The notes beneath the pieces are model-generated. The model saw only the letters and a list, made by a program, of their open reading frames with translations. It was not told the origin of the DNA and made no database searches. From an uncultured Flavobacteriales bacterium (GTDB lineage: Bacteria; Bacteroidota; Bacteroidia; Flavobacteriales_D; Sanyastnellaceae), in the NCBI GenBank assembly GCA_943787435.1, contig CALSMK010000008.1, positions 1 through 64,000 on the forward strand: a DNA stretch of 64,000 nucleotides. Direction: 5' to 3'. The translations under genes and the position numbers were made by a program. Every line of letters begins with the position of its first letter. The first letter of the stretch is position 1. Below are positions 50,247 through 63,704 of the stretch, piece after piece.

Positions 50247-50278
50247 AAAAAGGCCCAGCATCTGCGCTGGGCCTTTTG
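50247..50278. terminator. Bidirectional terminator
   Basis: AAAAGGCCCAGC pairs with GCTGGGCCTTTT around ATCTGC, between the convergent DUF4139 gene and amidohydrolase gene. Confidence 0.85.
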
Positions 50279-54910: not shown

Positions 54911-55555
54911 ATGAGTCAACCCGTGAGCGTGTATGCTGAAATGACCCCGAATCCAGAGGTCATGAAATTCGTGGCCGACCGGCCCCTCATCGAGGGAACG
55001 GAGCAGGCTGAATTCACCGGAAAAGCTGAGTGTGCTGGGCATTCTTCGCTGGCCGAAGAGCTGTTCAACTTTCCTTTTGTGGTCGGAATTTTCATCAGCG
55101 GAAACTTCGTGTCCATCACCAAAGACGATACCCTGGGTTGGGAAATGATCGCCATGCAAATGCGCGAATACATCCAACAGTGGCTGTCGGAACACCCTGT
55201 TGCTGTAGAAAAGGTCCCCCCTGCAAAAGCGATATCGGATGCCTCGGCTGGGGCAGGCGCTCCGGACAACAGCGGCTCGGGAGCATCGGAATTGGTCGCC
55301 CTCAACGACAGTGACATTGTTCCCACCGAACACGACGAGGCCATCGCCGCCCTGTTGGAAGAGTTCGTCAGGCCCGCTGTCGAGGCCGACGGTGGCGCCA
55401 TCGATTTTCGAGCCTTTGTGAACGGAACGGTTCATGTTCGCCTCAGGGGCGCATGTGCCGGTTGTCCCTCTTCCACAGCCACCCTGAAAGATGGCATCGA
55501 ACGCTTGCTCACTTCCAAACTTGACGTGGTTCAGTCCGTCGTCGCCTCCACCTAA
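54911..55555 (+). CDS. Nfu-type Fe-S cluster scaffold protein
   Basis: A 214-residue protein with an N-terminal Nfu_N domain (YAEMTPNPEVMKFVADRPL), a Ser/Ala/Gly linker, and a C-terminal NifU domain whose CxxC motif CAGC is in VRLRGACAGCPSSTATLKDGIERLL. Nfu proteins carry a [4Fe-4S] cluster at a dimer interface and deliver it to apo-enzymes. It is followed after 1 bp by the S24/LexA-like repressor gene, so the two are transcribed together. Confidence 0.92.
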   Translation: MSQPVSVYAEMTPNPEVMKFVADRPLIEGTEQAEFTGKAECAGHSSLAEELFNFPFVVGIFISGNFVSITKDDTLGWEMIAMQMREYIQQWLSEHPVAVEKVPPAKAISDASAGAGAPDNSGSGASELVALNDSDIVPTEHDEAIAALLEEFVRPAVEADGGAIDFRAFVNGTVHVRLRGACAGCPSSTATLKDGIERLLTSKLDVVQSVVAST

Positions 55556-55556
55556 A

Positions 55557-56264
55557 ATGGCTGAGACCACGCGCATTGGGTCCCAACTCCGCGCATTGCG
55601 CAAATCCCGGGGTTGGACGCAAACAGATCTCGCAGACAAAGCGGGCATCAAACGCACGGCACTCGGCGCCTACGAAGAAGGAAGGGCGGAGCCCAGAATG
55701 GGCGTGCTTGTTCGGCTGGCACATACGCTCAACGTGTCGCTCGACACATTGGTGTTGGGTGGAGATGTGAGTCCCATGGAACAGGACCTTCGAATCCTTC
55801 CCATCCCCACCGACAGGGACACTGGGGCAGAAAGAATCACGGCAGTGAGCACCAAGGCCGCCGCTGGATATGCATTGGGGTATGGCGATCCCGACTGGAT
55901 AGGAAGCTTGCCCACATTCGACCTCCCTTTGCCTGAAGTGCCTCAGGACCGAACCCTGCGCTTCTTTCAAATCGAAGGGGACAGCATGCTGCCTCTGCCC
56001 AGCGGAACTTGGATTTTATGCGCTTTTGTAGAACGCCTTGAAGACGTGGGAAGCGGTCGCCCCTATGTGGTCGCCACCCAAGAAGATGGCTTGGTGTTTA
56101 AGCGCGTCGAAAACCGACTTGATGAGGAAGGAGACTTGCTTCTGACGTCCAACAACCCCCTGTTCGCGCCGTTCTCTTTGGATCCAGAAAACGTGAAAGA
56201 GGCCTGGCGCGCCATTGGATGGTTTTCCACGGTTTGGCCTTCTGGTCCAGTCGCATCGTCCTGA
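55557..56264 (+). CDS. XRE-family HTH / S24 LexA-like autocleaving repressor
   Basis: A 235-residue protein: an XRE helix-turn-helix at residues ~7-62 (LRALRKSRGWTQTDLADKAGIKRTALGAYEEGR), a hinge with the potential self-cleavage bond Ala103-Gly104 in TKAAAGYALG, and an S24 peptidase domain with catalytic Ser143 (IEGDSMLPLPSG) and Lys182 (LVFKRVENR). This is the layout of LexA/UmuD/CI-type regulators that cleave themselves when RecA is activated by DNA damage. ATG 55557 was chosen over the longer open frame from 55491, which runs inside nfu. The closest candidate target is the dinB operon with its palindrome at 58449-58473. Whether this is the genuine SOS repressor of the organism is inference. 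Confidence 0.88.
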   Translation: MAETTRIGSQLRALRKSRGWTQTDLADKAGIKRTALGAYEEGRAEPRMGVLVRLAHTLNVSLDTLVLGGDVSPMEQDLRILPIPTDRDTGAERITAVSTKAAAGYALGYGDPDWIGSLPTFDLPLPEVPQDRTLRFFQIEGDSMLPLPSGTWILCAFVERLEDVGSGRPYVVATQEDGLVFKRVENRLDEEGDLLLTSNNPLFAPFSLDPENVKEAWRAIGWFSTVWPSGPVASS

Positions 56265-56342
56265 CCCGTTTTTGGTGGGGCCTGAAAAAGGGCTCAACGG
56301 CCAATTAGTTGTGATGTAACAATAGTAATCGTCTACAAATTT

Positions 56343-56365
56343 CATTATTCAATTATATAATAATG
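56343..56365. promoter_or_regulatory. AT-rich inverted repeat upstream of the metalloprotease gene
   Basis: CATTATT-N9-AATAATG (7-bp perfect arms), 26 bp before the ATG at 56392, next to a TATCTTTC -7-like box (56380-56387). It could be an operator. The octamer GCCAATTA at 56300-56307 is shared with the dinB palindrome. Confidence 0.35.
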
Positions 56366-56391
56366 TGGCCATCTGTGGCTATCTTTCCTCC

Positions 56392-58404
56392 ATGACCTCA
56401 TCGCTTGTGCCGCACCACTTGGTCTGTGGACTGTTGACCCTCCTCTTGGGCTTGACCGAAGTGTCAGCACAAAAGATGTTTGGGCTTCCCGCTTCGGCCA
56501 TGCACGATCACGCCCAATGTGATGCCGCAGGTTGTGATGGCCTTGTTGGCATCCCAGAGGATCACTTTCACTTCACCCCTGCCCCGATGCAACGGCGCAG
56601 CTCCTCGGCCACAATAGAGGTCACCTACTTTGGTTTCCCTGTCGCTGCGCAAACCGCATTTCAGTATGCCGTCAACATCTGGGCGGGACAAATCAGCAGC
56701 CCAGTCGACATCGACGTGGAAGCCACATGGACCGACCTTGGCCCCAACATCCTCGGGTCTGCGTCGCCGGCCACGATTCACCGCAACTTCACAGGGGCCA
56801 CCGAAGCCGACGTTTACTACCCGGCAGCTTTGGCCAATCAACTCACCGAAGACGACCTTCAATCCAACTCGGCCGACATCACGTGCAACTTCGGAAGCGA
56901 CGTCAGCTGGTACTTTGGACTGGACGGGAATGTGCCTCCCGGCGCTTACGACTTTGTAACCGTGGTTCTGCACGAACTCTGCCATGGACTGGGGTTCATT
57001 GGCAGCGCCAACTTGGCGGGCAGCACTGGGTTTGTTGGACAAAGTGGATCGCCCTTCATCTACGACACGTTCATCAACGACAACAATTCTGGGGGCAGCC
57101 TCCTGGACTTGAGCAATGGAACGAGCAGCCTTGGAAACGCATTGACCGGTGGTGGTTTGGTCTGGTCGGGGGCCGAGGGCCTCGCCGCCTCCACTGCTCC
57201 TCCCGGGATTTATGCGCCAAACCCTTGGGAACCCGGAGCGAGCTTTTCCCATCTCCGAGAAGACATGTACCTGTCGGGAAATGCCAACGCCTTGATGACG
57301 CCCAACCTGAATACAGGTGAAGCCATTCACAATCCAGGTCCCATCGTCATGGGCATGTTTTCGGACATGGGATGGGGCGTTCAAGGCTGTAGCATTCAGG
57401 CCCTTTTGGCCGGTTCCCAATCCTCATGCAACCCGGCAACCAACACCTACAGCCAACAAGTCATCCTCATTTACAATGACGCCCCAGCCGGCCTGCTGAA
57501 CGTCAACGGCTCCTTGTTCACCGTCTCTGGCAGCCCGCAAACCGTGAGCCTCAACAACCTTCCCTCTGACGGCGGAAGTGTGGACGTGACCGCTTATTTC
57601 ACAGGAGACCCTTCTTGCTCAGCAACACAAGTTTCTCTGTTCACAGCCCCAGAGCCCTGCAGCGGCGGAACGTGCAACCTGCTGTCCAACACCATTGGCG
57701 CGCAAACCCCCTGCAATCCCATCAACGGAACCTACACCCAAGAGGTCACCCTCGAGTTCGAGTTTTCGGCCGGCGCTGGCGATGTGGACATCAATGGGCA
57801 GGTCTTTCCTGTCAACAACAACTTGGCCAACGTGACCTTGACAGGCCTGGTTGCGGACGGAAATCCGGTCAACATGTTGATCACCTTCACCGAAGATGAC
57901 GCCTGTGGTTTCGCCGTTTTCGATGCATGGACCGCGCCCGGCACATGTCCCTGTGCACTGGAATTGGAATTGGACGCCGTGGGCGATTGCGACCCGCAAA
58001 CCGACGGGCACATCGTCGACGTGTTCATTGACGTGACCAACCCCCCTGGAACCGGTCTGCTGAACATCGGAGGCACCTTGTATGAAGTGCCCGAAACCGA
58101 TGGCATCTATTTGGCCAGCCTCGACGGGTTTGCCTCCAACGGGCAAACCTATTCATTCGGGGGATACTTTACCGATTTGCCAGGGTGCAGCACCCCCCAA
58201 GACATCAGCTGGACTGCGCCTGAATCCTGCGCCTGCCCTTCCGATCTGGACGGAGATGGCATCATTGGCGTTTCAGACACCTTGGATCTCCTCGCCAACT
58301 TTGGCTGCAGCAACGACGACTGTGTGGGCGACATCGACGGAGACAACATCGTCGGTGTGTCGGACATCCTCGAACTGCTTTCCCTCTTCGGAACGGGCTG
58401 TTGA
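56392..58404 (+). CDS. Secreted zinc metalloprotease-like protein with three Ig-like repeats and dockerin-like tail
   Basis: From ATG 56392 the protein has 670 residues and a signal peptide (LTLLLGLTEVSA). The zincin motif HELCHGLGF begins at His194 with Glu195 as base; the third ligand of metzincins (HExxHxxGxxH) is not at the expected place, which reads Gly. After the catalytic domain come three ~85-residue Cys-rich repeats, each starting with SCNPATNTYSQQVIL, PCNPINGTYTQEVTL or DCDPQTDGHIVDVFI and ending TAPxxC. The C-terminus is a dockerin-like pair (CPSDLDGDGIIGVSDTLDLLANFG, then DIDGDNIVGVSDILELLSLFG). The start avoids the upstream GTG in the same frame, which lies in the promoter region. 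It lies between the S24 repressor and dinB. Confidence 0.8.
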   Translation: MTSSLVPHHLVCGLLTLLLGLTEVSAQKMFGLPASAMHDHAQCDAAGCDGLVGIPEDHFHFTPAPMQRRSSSATIEVTYFGFPVAAQTAFQYAVNIWAGQISSPVDIDVEATWTDLGPNILGSASPATIHRNFTGATEADVYYPAALANQLTEDDLQSNSADITCNFGSDVSWYFGLDGNVPPGAYDFVTVVLHELCHGLGFIGSANLAGSTGFVGQSGSPFIYDTFINDNNSGGSLLDLSNGTSSLGNALTGGGLVWSGAEGLAASTAPPGIYAPNPWEPGASFSHLREDMYLSGNANALMTPNLNTGEAIHNPGPIVMGMFSDMGWGVQGCSIQALLAGSQSSCNPATNTYSQQVILIYNDAPAGLLNVNGSLFTVSGSPQTVSLNNLPSDGGSVDVTAYFTGDPSCSATQVSLFTAPEPCSGGTCNLLSNTIGAQTPCNPINGTYTQEVTLEFEFSAGAGDVDINGQVFPVNNNLANVTLTGLVADGNPVNMLITFTEDDACGFAVFDAWTAPGTCPCALELELDAVGDCDPQTDGHIVDVFIDVTNPPGTGLLNIGGTLYEVPETDGIYLASLDGFASNGQTYSFGGYFTDLPGCSTPQDISWTAPESCACPSDLDGDGIIGVSDTLDLLANFGCSNDDCVGDIDGDNIVGVSDILELLSLFGTGC

Positions 58405-58448: not shown

Positions 58449-58473
58449 GGAATGCCAATTAAATTGGCATTCC
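58449..58473. promoter_or_regulatory. Perfect 25-bp palindrome before dinB (candidate SOS operator)
   Basis: A 12-bp arm GGAATGCCAATT is repeated exactly in inverse as AATTGGCATTCC around a single central A (58461). It ends 12 bp before the dinB ATG at 58486. With a 1-base loop it is a poor hairpin and has no clean T-run, so a dimeric repressor operator is more likely than a terminator. Confidence 0.7.
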
Positions 58474-58485
58474 ATTTTAGTTGAC

Positions 58486-59703
58486 ATGTCCACACAACGC
58501 ACCGTCCTTCACCTCGACCTCGACACCTTCTTTGTGTCGGTGGAGCGTTTGATGGACAGCCGTTTGCATGGAAAGCCCCTGCTGATCGGCGGAACCGGTG
58601 ACCGCGGCGTTGTGGCCTCATGCAGTTACGAGGCGCGCCGCTTTGGCATCCATTCGGGCATGCCCATGAAAATGGCTCGGGAACTTTGCCCAGAGGCCCT
58701 GGTCATTCGCGGCAACTCCGCCACATACTCCAAGTACTCGCACGCCGTCACCGACATCGTTCGCGAGGCCGTTCCCGTCTGCGAGAAGACCTCCATCGAT
58801 GAGTTTTACGCCGACCTCACGGGCATGGACCGCTTCTTCGGATGCTGGAAATACTCCGGTGAATTGCGTGAGCGGGTCATGCGCGAAACGGGGTTGCCCA
58901 TCTCCTTTGGGCTGTCCGAAAACAAGACCGTCTCCAAAGTAGCGACCGGAGAGGCCAAGCCCAACAACGCCTTGCGCATCGAACGCGGAACAGAACGTCC
59001 TTTTTTGGCCCCGTTGGGGATCCGAAAAATCCCCATGGTCGGAGAAAAGACCTACCAAATTCTCCGAAACTTGGGCGTCCGGCAAATCGCCACCGTGCAA
59101 GACATGCCCGTGGAGATGATGGAGCGCGTTCTGGGCAAATCTGGCCGTGTCATCTGGAGAAAGGCACAAGGAGAAGACCCCTCTCCGGTGATGCCCACCA
59201 GCGAACGAAAGTCCATCTCCACCGAACGCACCTTCCGCAAGGACACCACCGATGTGGAGCACCTTCGCGGCATCCTCATTGCCATGGCCGAAAACCTGGC
59301 CTTCCAACTTCGTCGGGGCAACAAGCTGACCGCTTGCATCACCCTAAAGGTTCGATACAGCGACTTCGATACGCGCACACTTCAGGCCCGCATTCCATAC
59401 ACCGCCGCAGACCACCGACTGGTTCCAAAAGCCTTGGAACTCTTCGAGCGCCTGTACGACCGCAGGGTTCTGGTTCGGCTCGTTGGGGTGCGATACAGCC
59501 ACTTGGTTGGCGGGGGCATGCAAATGGACCTGTTCGATGAAGACGAAGACCGGCAGGCCTTGTACCAAGCCATGGACGGCCTTCGCGAACGCTTTGGCGA
59601 CCGCACCATTGTATCGGCCGCCAGCCTCGGTGCACGCACCATTGGCCGTTCCAACCCTTTCTCCGGAGACGCCCCACTCCTTCTCGCCAACCGCCACCAG
59701 TAA
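58486..59703 (+). CDS. dinB: Y-family translesion DNA polymerase (DinB/Pol IV type)
   Basis: A 405-residue polymerase. The palm catalytic residues are Asp11 and Asp13 (HLDLDTFFVSVE) and Asp105-Glu106 (SIDEFYADLTG), so it is predicted active, unlike ImuB proteins. The thumb and little-finger domains follow, with the helix-hairpin-helix region VGEKTYQILRNLGVRQIATVQ. The motif QMDLF at residues 346-350 is a sliding-clamp binding peptide. It synthesises across damaged template bases at low fidelity. First gene of a three-gene operon (14-bp gap to the SRAP gene), preceded by a 25-bp palindrome. Confidence 0.94.
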   Translation: MSTQRTVLHLDLDTFFVSVERLMDSRLHGKPLLIGGTGDRGVVASCSYEARRFGIHSGMPMKMARELCPEALVIRGNSATYSKYSHAVTDIVREAVPVCEKTSIDEFYADLTGMDRFFGCWKYSGELRERVMRETGLPISFGLSENKTVSKVATGEAKPNNALRIERGTERPFLAPLGIRKIPMVGEKTYQILRNLGVRQIATVQDMPVEMMERVLGKSGRVIWRKAQGEDPSPVMPTSERKSISTERTFRKDTTDVEHLRGILIAMAENLAFQLRRGNKLTACITLKVRYSDFDTRTLQARIPYTAADHRLVPKALELFERLYDRRVLVRLVGVRYSHLVGGGMQMDLFDEDEDRQALYQAMDGLRERFGDRTIVSAASLGARTIGRSNPFSGDAPLLLANRHQ

Positions 59704-59717
59704 ATTCACCTCCTCTC

Positions 59718-60560
59718 ATGTGTGGACGCTACGTCACTGTCACCTCCGTTCAAGCGATTGAAAAACGCTTCCAAGTCACCGCAGGGCCCGATTACACGGA
59801 CGCCCCTGCGCCACCCAACACCAATGTTTCTCACGGTGACCTCGCGCCCATCGTGACCGGAGACCGCCCAGGCGCGCTGCAGACCATGCAGTTCGGCTTT
59901 ACCCCTTCCTGGGCCAAGAAGCAGTTCTACATGATCAACGCGCGCAGCGAGGGCGACCACAACGCCGACAACCAACCCGGCTACCGAGGCGCCATGGGCA
60001 TTCTGCAAAAACCCATGTTCCGGCAATCCATTCGAACGCGGCGGTGCCTGGTCATTGCCGACGCCTTCATCGAAGGACCACAGAGAGAAAAACTCGCCAA
60101 ACCTTATGTGGTCTATGCCCGAGATGGACAAAGGCCCTTTGCATTGGCGGGAATCTGGGACGAATGGGCCGACTCCACCACAGGAGAACTGATCCGGTCG
60201 TTTGCCATCATCACCACCACGGCCTGCGACGTCCTGAACAACATTGGCCACCACCGGTCACCCGTGCTGCTCCACCCGGAAGACGAACGCACTTGGATTG
60301 ATCCCGTGACCCCATTGAGCGATGTCACTGCGCTCCTTCGCCCCATTCCCGACGGAACCCTCAACGCCTACCCCATTGATCCCGGCATCAAAAACCCCCG
60401 CCTCAACGGAACCAGCCTCCTCCAGCCCGTGGGCCAACGGGTCTTTCCGGAATGTGACTACGACCTGCACCAATCCCTCGACATGTTTGGGATGGGAGAG
60501 TCCCGAGCAAAAAGGCGACGCGACTCCGAGTCCGAAGCCGGCCAAAGCCGTTTGTTCTGA
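59718..60560 (+). CDS. SRAP / YedK-type abasic-site processing protein
   Basis: A 280-residue protein of the HMCES/YedK family. Cys2 of MCGRY becomes the N-terminal residue after methionine removal and forms a covalent thiazolidine link with abasic sites in single-stranded DNA. The other conserved residues are Asn74 (MINARSEG), Glu119 (DAFIEGP) and His178 (NNIGHHRSPVLL). The C-terminal 30 residues are basic and Ser-rich. The gene sits between dinB and dnaE (14 and 18 bp gaps), which supports a role in protecting abasic sites during translesion synthesis. Confidence 0.94.
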   Translation: MCGRYVTVTSVQAIEKRFQVTAGPDYTDAPAPPNTNVSHGDLAPIVTGDRPGALQTMQFGFTPSWAKKQFYMINARSEGDHNADNQPGYRGAMGILQKPMFRQSIRTRRCLVIADAFIEGPQREKLAKPYVVYARDGQRPFALAGIWDEWADSTTGELIRSFAIITTTACDVLNNIGHHRSPVLLHPEDERTWIDPVTPLSDVTALLRPIPDGTLNAYPIDPGIKNPRLNGTSLLQPVGQRVFPECDYDLHQSLDMFGMGESRAKRRRDSESEAGQSRLF

Positions 60561-60578: not shown

Positions 60579-63500
60579 ATGTATCTGAATACCCACTCGT
60601 GGTTCAGCCTGCGATACGGCGTGATGCGCCCAGAGGAACTGCTGGCAGAGGCCCAAGCAGCCGGCGTGACCTGCATGGCCCTCACCGACGTTCACGGGAC
60701 CTCCGGCGGACCTGACTTTGTTCGCCTCGCCGCCAAATACGGCATTCGCCCTGTGCTGGGCGTGGACTTCCGCCAAGGTGCCACCCAACAATACATCGGC
60801 CTGGCTCGGGACCACGATGGCTACGAGCAGCTGTGTTCCTTTCTGTCCGATGGGCTTCACAAAGGACATTCTGGCAAGCCACGTCGCATGCCCAATCGCC
60901 CCCCTGTCCTCCATGGCGTGGTTTGGGTCTATCCATGGGAGCGCAGAACCGAACCCAACACGTGGATTCACCCCAACACTTTGCGCACCGATGAATTCGT
61001 GGGGGTCCGACCCCAAGAACTCGGGTCCCTTCGCCTGGCTTTGCAAAGGGAGCCCGACCGCACACCTCACGCTCGAATGGTGGCCCTTCAAACATCCACA
61101 TTCAGGCACCACAGAGACCACAACGCACACCGCCTGTTGCGCGCCATCGACAACAACACCCTCTTGGCCAAACTGCCAAAGGACCAAGTGGCACCCGACA
61201 CCGACCGACTTCTGCGCGCCGGCGAGCTCGAGGGGGCATACGCAGAATTCCCCTGGCTCATCGAACGCGCCAACGCCTTGCTTGACGCCTGTCACATCGA
61301 CTTTGACGGCGACCTGGGAGATCAGGAGGACGGAGCCACACACCGCAACCTCCGCACCTTCACAAATTCCATTGTCGAGGACGAACGTCTGCTGCGCGAC
61401 CTGTGTGCAGAAGGCCTCGCTTACCGCTATCCTGATGCCACAGAAGTGATCCTCGACCGGATGGAACACGAGATCGAAGTGCTGCGCGAAAAAGAGTTCC
61501 TCGCCTACTTCCTCGTCAATTGGGACATCACCACGTACGCCAGGTCCAAAGGCTACTTCCACGTTGGAAGGGGCAGTGGCGCCAACAGCTTGGTCGCCTA
61601 TTTGCTTCGCATCACCGATGTAGACCCCATTGAACTCGACCTGTACTTCGAACGGTTCATCAACCTCTATCGGTCCAACCCTCCCGACTTTGACCTGGAC
61701 TTCTCTTGGACAGACCGCGATGACGTCACGCAGTACATTTTTGATCGGTACGAACACGTAGCCCTGCTTGGCGCCTACAACACGTTTCAATACCGAGCCG
61801 TCGTGCGGGAACTTGGAAAGGTCTTCGGGTTGCCCAAACACGAAATCGACGCCCTGGCCCATGGTCGATTTGACCCAGGGAAACTCGGAGAAGTGGAACG
61901 CGCCGTCATCCGCTATGCAGGGGTGCTCCGTGACTTCCCCAACCAGATCTCGATTCACGCCTGCGGCATCCTCATCTCAGATCGCCCCATCCACAGAACC
62001 TGCGCCACTTTCTTGCCGCCAAAAGGGTTTCCCACCACCCAATATGACATGGTGGTTGCAGAGGACTTGGCGCTCCACAAATTCGACATCCTCTCCCAAC
62101 GCGGCCTGGCCAAAATCAAAGACGCCCTGGACCTCATCGCCGAAACCGACCCCGATGCCCACATCGACATCCATGACATGAAACGGTTCAAGGCCGATCC
62201 ACGGGTGCAACACCTGTTGCGCGAAGCCGAGGCCATAGGATGCTTCTATGTTGAGTCACCAGCCATGCGCATGCTCATGCGCAAACTCCGGGTCGACGAC
62301 TACTTGGGTCTGGTTGCCGCCAGTTCCGTCATCCGCCCAGGCGTGGCGCGAAGTGGCATGATGCGCACTTACATAGAACGACACCGCTTCCCCGACCGGA
62401 GGCATGAAGCCCACCCCATCCTCTTGCAAATCATGCCAGAGACCTATGGGGTGATGGTCTACCAAGAGGATGTCATCAAGGTCGCCAACCGGTTCGCCGG
62501 GCTTGATCTTGGGGAAGCCGATGTGCTCCGGCGCGGAATGTCCGGGAAGTTTCGGTCCAGGGCAGAGTTTCAAAAGGCCAAGCAAGCCTTCTTCGACAAA
62601 GCCAAGGAAAAGGGACACCCCACCGACATGGTCACCGAAGTATGGCGCCAAGTCGAAAGCTTTGCCGGCTACGCATTTGCCAAGGGCCACTCGGCTTCAT
62701 TTGCCGTCGAAAGCTATCAAAGCCTCTTCCTCAAGGCGCATTGGCCCCTCGAATACATGACCGCCTGCATCAACAACTTTGGTGGTTTTTACCGCACGGA
62801 GTTTTACGTCCACGAAGCCCGACTGCTCGGGGGAAGCATCGCCGCGCCGTGCGTGAACAGCGGCGGCTACCGGACCCGCTACACCGGCGGTACAAAAACC
62901 ATCACCCTGGGGTTCAACTTGGTCAAGGGAGTGGAAGGCGAAACCGCAGCCACCATTGAGCGAGAACGTCGCCAAAATGGTCCCTACCACAACATCGAGG
63001 GCTTTGTTCGGCGAACCGGAACCGGACTGGAACAACTGCTCACCATCATTCGCATTGGCGCCTTCCGTTGGACTGGCCGGTCCAAGCAACAGCTTCAATG
63101 GGAAGCCCACTTTCTCCTAGGCCACCTGCCCAAGCGCTCCCCAACGGCCGACTTGTTCCAAGAACAGGACACAACCTCTGCCCACCACACACTGAACGCC
63201 CTTCCCCAGCTGTCCGGCGGTACAGAGGAGGACGCGTACGACGAAATTGAGCTCCTCGGGTTTCCCCTTTCTTCTCCATTCGGGCTGCTCACTTCAAACG
63301 CAAAAGACCAAGCGAATGCCGGCATCCCCGCGCGTGCTCTTCCAGAATTCATCGGTCGGAACGTCGCCATTGCCGGATACTTGGTGACCGTCAAAGAAAC
63401 CTCCACCGTCAAAGGCGATCGCATGCTGTTTGGGTGCTTTGTGGACCGCGAAGGCCTGTGGATTGACACCGTGCACTTTCCACAAGTTGCCTCTGCCTTT

Positions 63501-63704
63501 CCCTTTCGAGGACGCGGCGTCTACCTGCTCAACGGAACCGCAAAAGAAGAGTTTGGGTGTGTCAATGTGGAGGTCTCCTCTATGGAAAAACTGGACCTCA
63601 TGCCCGACCCTCGCTACGACGAAAGCACACCTTCAAAACTGCGGCCATCGGGCAGCCGACACAGAAAAGTTCCTCAAGCCAGGCGACTTCCCAACGCCTC
63701 TTAA
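60579..63704 (+). CDS. Second DNA polymerase III alpha subunit (DnaE2-like, error-prone)
   Basis: A 1041-residue C-family polymerase, shorter than a replicative DnaE (about 1150-1500 in Bacteroidota). It opens with a PHP domain (MYLNTHSWFSLRYGVMRPEELLAEAQAAG ... ALTDVHGTSG), followed by the palm with catalytic Asp370 and Asp372 in NPPDFDLDFSW, HVGRGSGANSLVAYLL, and helix-hairpin-helix and OB domains near the C-terminus (IAGYLVTVKETSTVKGDRMLFGCFVD). The context after dinB and SRAP marks it as the mutagenic polymerase, not the replicase. The C-terminal 25 residues are basic and not conserved-looking; a frame error there cannot be excluded. Confidence 0.9.
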   Translation: MYLNTHSWFSLRYGVMRPEELLAEAQAAGVTCMALTDVHGTSGGPDFVRLAAKYGIRPVLGVDFRQGATQQYIGLARDHDGYEQLCSFLSDGLHKGHSGKPRRMPNRPPVLHGVVWVYPWERRTEPNTWIHPNTLRTDEFVGVRPQELGSLRLALQREPDRTPHARMVALQTSTFRHHRDHNAHRLLRAIDNNTLLAKLPKDQVAPDTDRLLRAGELEGAYAEFPWLIERANALLDACHIDFDGDLGDQEDGATHRNLRTFTNSIVEDERLLRDLCAEGLAYRYPDATEVILDRMEHEIEVLREKEFLAYFLVNWDITTYARSKGYFHVGRGSGANSLVAYLLRITDVDPIELDLYFERFINLYRSNPPDFDLDFSWTDRDDVTQYIFDRYEHVALLGAYNTFQYRAVVRELGKVFGLPKHEIDALAHGRFDPGKLGEVERAVIRYAGVLRDFPNQISIHACGILISDRPIHRTCATFLPPKGFPTTQYDMVVAEDLALHKFDILSQRGLAKIKDALDLIAETDPDAHIDIHDMKRFKADPRVQHLLREAEAIGCFYVESPAMRMLMRKLRVDDYLGLVAASSVIRPGVARSGMMRTYIERHRFPDRRHEAHPILLQIMPETYGVMVYQEDVIKVANRFAGLDLGEADVLRRGMSGKFRSRAEFQKAKQAFFDKAKEKGHPTDMVTEVWRQVESFAGYAFAKGHSASFAVESYQSLFLKAHWPLEYMTACINNFGGFYRTEFYVHEARLLGGSIAAPCVNSGGYRTRYTGGTKTITLGFNLVKGVEGETAATIERERRQNGPYHNIEGFVRRTGTGLEQLLTIIRIGAFRWTGRSKQQLQWEAHFLLGHLPKRSPTADLFQEQDTTSAHHTLNALPQLSGGTEEDAYDEIELLGFPLSSPFGLLTSNAKDQANAGIPARALPEFIGRNVAIAGYLVTVKETSTVKGDRMLFGCFVDREGLWIDTVHFPQVASAFPFRGRGVYLLNGTAKEEFGCVNVEVSSMEKLDLMPDPRYDESTPSKLRPSGSRHRKVPQARRLPNAS

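Follow-up and report, generated by a model that had tools for sequence, protein, structure and literature searches.

The window analysed here is a 64,000-nucleotide stretch of DNA from an uncultured Flavobacteriales bacterium, and the genes of interest lie on its forward strand. The nfu gene (54911-55555), encoding an Fe-S scaffold with Nfu_N and NifU domains, is followed by a gene (55557-56264) for a 235 aa repressor with an XRE/CI-type HTH and an S24 peptidase domain. We assign this protein to the non-canonical LexA type on the basis of its Pfam domains (HTH_3 and Peptidase_S24), its invariant residues and AlphaFold2/Foldseek comparisons. The longest S24 ORF begins at 55491; alignment with the closest congeners starts at the 55557 ATG, 1 base past the nfu stop codon. 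With its ATG directly after that stop codon, the S24 gene is probably co-transcribed with nfu. Next is a gene (56365-58404) for a secreted metalloprotease-like protein with a dockerin/EF-hand-like C-terminus, annotated from a match to NF038122 below the cut-off and from locus comparison. As far as can be seen it lies outside the repressor circuit. A metalloprotease-like gene with dockerin/EF-hand-like repeats sits between the repressor and dinB in several genera.

Downstream are dinB (58486-59703; Y-family DNA polymerase IV, with IMS and IMS_C domains and matches to DNA polymerase IV models), a gene for SRAP, the SOS response associated peptidase (59718-60560; PF02586), and a gene for a DnaE-type polymerase (60579-63704; error-prone, DnaE2-like, with DNA_pol3_alpha, finger and PHP domains), for which the best NCBIfam models are PolIII alpha and error-prone polymerase. 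The gaps between them are 14 bases (dinB to SRAP) and 18 bases (SRAP to dnaE), suggesting that the three genes are likely to form an operon in that order. Elsewhere in the window, at 50248-50277, there is a 12-bp perfect inverted repeat, AAAAGGCCCAGC-N6-GCTGGGCCTTTT, that resembles a bidirectional terminator.

There is a perfect 25-bp palindrome, GGAATGCCAATT-A-AATTGGCATTCC, at 58449-58473 (arms 58449-58460 and 58462-58473, centre 58461), and 12 bases separate it from the dinB ATG at 58486. The original prediction had described it in these terms, and both its sequence and its coordinates are exact. The palindrome had also been held to be beyond chance, and the simulations agree: no perfect palindrome with arms of at least 12 and a centre of 0-1 base arose in 60 Markov-1 simulated windows, and arms of at least 10 occurred at 0.23 per window. 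It is the sole match in the window at up to 3 mismatches (shuffle expectation 0.00), and the window's own assembly (2.12 Mb, 78.5% complete) contains no second site that matches the 17-bp core TGCCAATTNAATTGGCA with 2 mismatches or fewer. A further copy of the octamer GCCAATTA is indeed present at 56300-56307, as had been pointed out, but the proposed link to an operator falls away: the copy there is neither a dyad nor conserved and is thus a coincidence.

Of 60 related genomes, 56 yielded a DinB relative, and the upstream regions of 12 congeneric species were aligned as a footprint. The sequence AATGCCAA-Y-TAAW-TTGGCAT is invariant or nearly so in the 12 species, whereas the other intergenic DNA varies freely. 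The outer GGA/TCC symmetry of the 25-bp palindrome is not kept, which suggests that the functional element is about 19 bp, ATGCCAA-N5-TTGGCAT, and that the perfect 25 bp are partly fortuitous. In the window this candidate operator core reads ATGCCAA-TTAAA-TTGGCAT (58452-58470), with an inner dyad of CCAA (58455-58458), five spacer bases (58459-58463) and TTGG (58464-58467). The 5-bp spacer is kept in all congeners for which the dinB upstream region was retrieved. That the sequence itself is conserved, spacer included, points to a DNA-bound protein and not to an RNA stem. Two congeners (L146 and L148), and these only, have a small inverted repeat, CCGAAGTGTCTTCGG, about 25 bp before the operator.

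The S24 protein scores above the Pfam cut-off for both HTH_3 (62.4 bits) and Peptidase_S24 (31.5 bits), and so has both domains of non-canonical Bacteroidetes LexA, the CI-type HTH (PF01381) and the S24 domain (PF00717). A PF00717 profile search of the window's own genome missed even this gene, and S24 relatives were sought by protein query. The Ala103-Gly104 cleavage site and the Ser143 and Lys182 dyad are invariant in 32 sequences. In the AlphaFold2 model (mean pLDDT 86), compared domain by domain using Foldseek, the C-terminal part resembles the C-terminal domains of LexA and CI, and the HTH resembles P22 c2 and DdrO. The window protein and those most closely related to it are 235-236 residues long; the outgroup proteins reach about 255-265 residues and include a C-terminal helix. 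This helix has been speculated to fix the operator spacing in non-canonical LexA (Sanchez-Osuna et al., 2021; PMC8565304). Judging from the alignments, it is lost in the window subclade, yet the operator spacing is unchanged, a combination that offers a direct natural test of the spacing proposal of Sanchez-Osuna et al.

The published operator of the non-canonical Bacteroidetes LexA proteins, which have an XRE/CI-type HTH and an S24 domain, is CTAA-N5-TTAG; homologues of the S24 repressor bind their sites and are damage-inducible (Sanchez-Osuna et al., 2021, NAR; PMC8565304). The window site, CCAA-TTAAA-TTGG (58455-58467), has the same geometry, with half-sites of 4 bp and a fixed spacer of 5 bp. 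Each half-site differs at one position, so that the exact CTAA is absent and CCAA stands in its place. Two genomes that the S24 tree places as sister to the window clade (G003 and G005, support 100/98) have GCTAA-N5-TTGGC before dinB. Further genera have GCTAA-N5-TTAGC, TTGCTMA-N5-TTAGCAA (including TTGCTCA-N5-TTAGCAA) or TTGCCAA-N5-TTGGCAA. The occurrence of CTAA on one side in the sister genomes and on both sides in further genera suggests that the window site is a diverged variant, and the operator appears to have been caught changing at constant spacing, with CTAA/TTAG in the outgroup, CTAA/TTGG in the sister and CCAA/TTGG in the window clade. The relatives that have exact CTAA-N5-TTAG sites share 40-50% identity with the window S24 protein. 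As a positive control, the same script recovered the published GGA-N5-TCC doublets upstream of dinB when applied to Flavobacteriaceae (L207-L223).

The S24 gene is near dinB in most S24-bearing genomes, although the arrangement is variable. The window genus has nfu> S24> protease> dinB>, and one group (L174) has nfu> <S24 protease> dinB>, where S24 and dinB are each preceded by a site. At two loci (L155 and L157) S24 and dinB are divergent and share the region between them, and at others (L158-L172) there is an S24-dinB operon with CTAA-N5-TTAG before S24. The S24 gene is preceded by its own TTGCCAA-N5-TTGGC in G003 and G005, and by TTGCYAA-like sites in a further four genomes (G017, G020, G025 and G050). 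Among the 39 genomes with S24, 23 have a significant site upstream of dinB; among the 9 without S24, only 1 does. One genus supplies 15 of the 23 positive genomes, so this association is supportive and not conclusive; outside that genus the counts are 8 of 24 and 1 of 9, which is not strong alone. In several of the S24-bearing genomes that were scored as having no dinB site, the operon begins with S24.

The data directly show the site itself, its sequence conservation, its gradation into the published LexA operator, its link to the S24 and dinB genes and the intact cleavage residues. On these comparisons we consider it highly likely that the palindrome is the operator of a damage-inducible dinB-SRAP-dnaE2 operon and is bound by the S24 repressor encoded 2.2 kb upstream. 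It had been predicted to be a repressor site suited to the control of dinB, and the conservation of the site and the S24-dinB linkage suggest that it is very probably the operator of this nearby repressor. The comparisons give high confidence that it is a diverged form, particular to this lineage, of an operator known from the Bacteroidetes, apparently reduced to a single operon.

We infer binding, promoter overlap, cleavage and induction, in outline as follows. A dimer of the CI-like S24 repressor would bind ATGCCAA-N5-TTGGCAT and overlap the dinB promoter region, so that transcription would be blocked. Upon DNA damage, RecA filaments would trigger self-cleavage of the repressor at Ala103-Gly104; the cleaved repressor would leave the DNA and the mutagenic cassette dinB-SRAP-dnaE2 would be made. 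In the window lineage the repressor gene would have joined the nfu operon, where it has no operator of its own, and the repressor appears to keep one target. A scan for sigma-70 promoters gave no match, as is expected for Bacteroidota, and no -33/-7 promoter could be fixed.

The palindrome lies 45 bp past the stop codon of the metalloprotease gene (56365-58404) and might instead be its intrinsic terminator. It is flagged by a simple terminator scan, and as RNA it would form an 11-bp hairpin (z -4.1) followed by ATTTTAG. However, this tail is a poor U-run, and homologous sites range from -0.2 to -14.7 kcal/mol as RNA while the DNA dyad is kept. The original prediction had named a terminator-like placement as what would speak against a repressor site; the dyad instead recurs directly before S24 genes, and it persists where no such gene end precedes dinB, as between the divergent S24 and dinB genes of L155 and L157. 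Additionally, a terminator 12 bp before the ATG leaves no room for a dinB promoter. We regard a terminator as improbable, and translational control by a hairpin in the dinB leader RNA as more improbable still, to the point of being hardly credible. The hairpin is stable and close to the start codon, but it is the exact sequence including the spacer that is conserved, and not pairing by compensatory change; at the homologous sites the RNA fold is unstable and the distance to the start varies, from about 30 to 120 bp.

A regulator other than the linked S24 protein could also bind the operator. This would fit with the lack of a copy of the site at the S24 gene of the window clade, and the recA promoter suggests that a second palindrome-binding factor is probably present. 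It is nevertheless unlikely, if a little less so than a terminator, because sites occur before S24 itself in sister genomes, the S24-dinB linkage is conserved, the site co-occurs with S24, and homologues are published as binding at the same dyad geometry (PMC8565304).

The S24 repressor, taken as the regulator of the dinB operon, appears to have few other sites. Across 17 congeneric genomes, matches to the core are essentially limited to the dinB site in each, apart from a few scattered others, and when 1 mismatch is allowed there are 251 matches as against 199 in the control, which is near the control level. Sites before recA, dinB and the S24 gene had been proposed as the outcome to look for in a genome scan; dinB stands essentially alone, and no site accompanies the window S24 gene. 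The palindrome had further been offered as a usable general SOS motif. This does not hold for a core that is essentially confined to dinB in the congeners, where the recA palindrome is a different one, and a canonical multi-gene SOS regulon, in which recA and further SOS genes would share one motif, was not found. The pattern GCYAA-N5-TTRGC gave 13 matches in the window's own genome as against 13 in the control, and those examined besides dinB are inside ORFs. An AT-spaced match (C31:14725, L053) was rejected as an operator because it is inside a 341-aa ORF.

Across the genus's main clade, the 200 bp upstream of S24 showed no operator, and none was seen between nfu and its divergent neighbour. 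This suggests that autoregulation has been lost and that the level of repressor should follow nfu expression. The site before the regulator's own gene that is characteristic of non-canonical LexA is absent from the window clade and present in G003 and G005.

Like the published CTAA-N5-TTAG operator, the window site is a 13-bp dyad with 4-bp half-sites and a 5-bp spacer, placed before error-prone polymerase genes and accompanied by a regulator with a CI-type HTH and an S24 domain, and the homologous sites of neighbouring genera read exactly CTAA/TTAG. It differs in having CCAA/TTGG with extended ATG/CAT flanks, and the window clade differs from the published system in having one operon only, with recA excluded and no site at the gene of the regulator. 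A diverged LexA site, TTAC-AAATT-GTAA, is bound by its cognate S24 regulator in EMSA in Elizabethkingia anophelis (PMC8565304). There too the palindrome has diverged at unchanged spacing next to an error-prone polymerase, but the half-site is another one and the regulator is duplicated, in contrast with the one full-length regulator in nearly every congeneric genome here. HdiR of Streptococcus uberis, also a CI-like S24 regulator, is described as acting on a mutagenic gene cassette and nothing else (as cited in PMC8565304). The window repressor appears to be similarly tied to a mutagenic cassette alone, whereas HdiR is from the Firmicutes and has another operator. The Crocinitomicaceae/Cryomorphaceae/Schleiferiaceae group is not named in the main text of PMC8565304, and we found no later literature on the CTAA motif or the recA palindrome in the window's group. 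On these data, an uncultured marine group of Flavobacteriales would be added to the known range of non-canonical LexA.

Finally, recA is missing from the 78.5% complete assembly, and recA promoters were read in relatives (L088-L113 and L291-L310). In the congeners, as in many other members of the order, these promoters have CGTAA-N5-TTACG or TTGTAA-N5-TTACAA, and the CCAA/CTAA site only rarely. Six genomes yielded no full-length S24 (G019, G024, G029, G034, G035 and G036), as judged on drafts of which five are at least 96% complete and one (G036) is 78% complete, and all six have the recA-type palindrome. This suggests that another factor must read CGTAA-N5-TTACG, and the conservation at recA of a palindrome unlike the one at dinB leads us to predict that the order has a second damage regulator. 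A split damage response is quite possible, and we propose it tentatively: a LexA-type repressor in the nfu operon may have lost autoregulation and its C-terminal helix, changed its half-site and retained one target, the mutagenesis cassette, with recA under the separate CGTAA-N5-TTACG via another regulator, also where S24 is absent. There are usually two CGTAA-N5-TTACG sites per congeneric genome, and one in the window's assembly, which has no recA (G000:C23:16512-16526, L239). The second site in most congeneric genomes precedes a small ORF, followed by an uncharacterised gene and then by a gene that is SiaB-type-like by resemblance.
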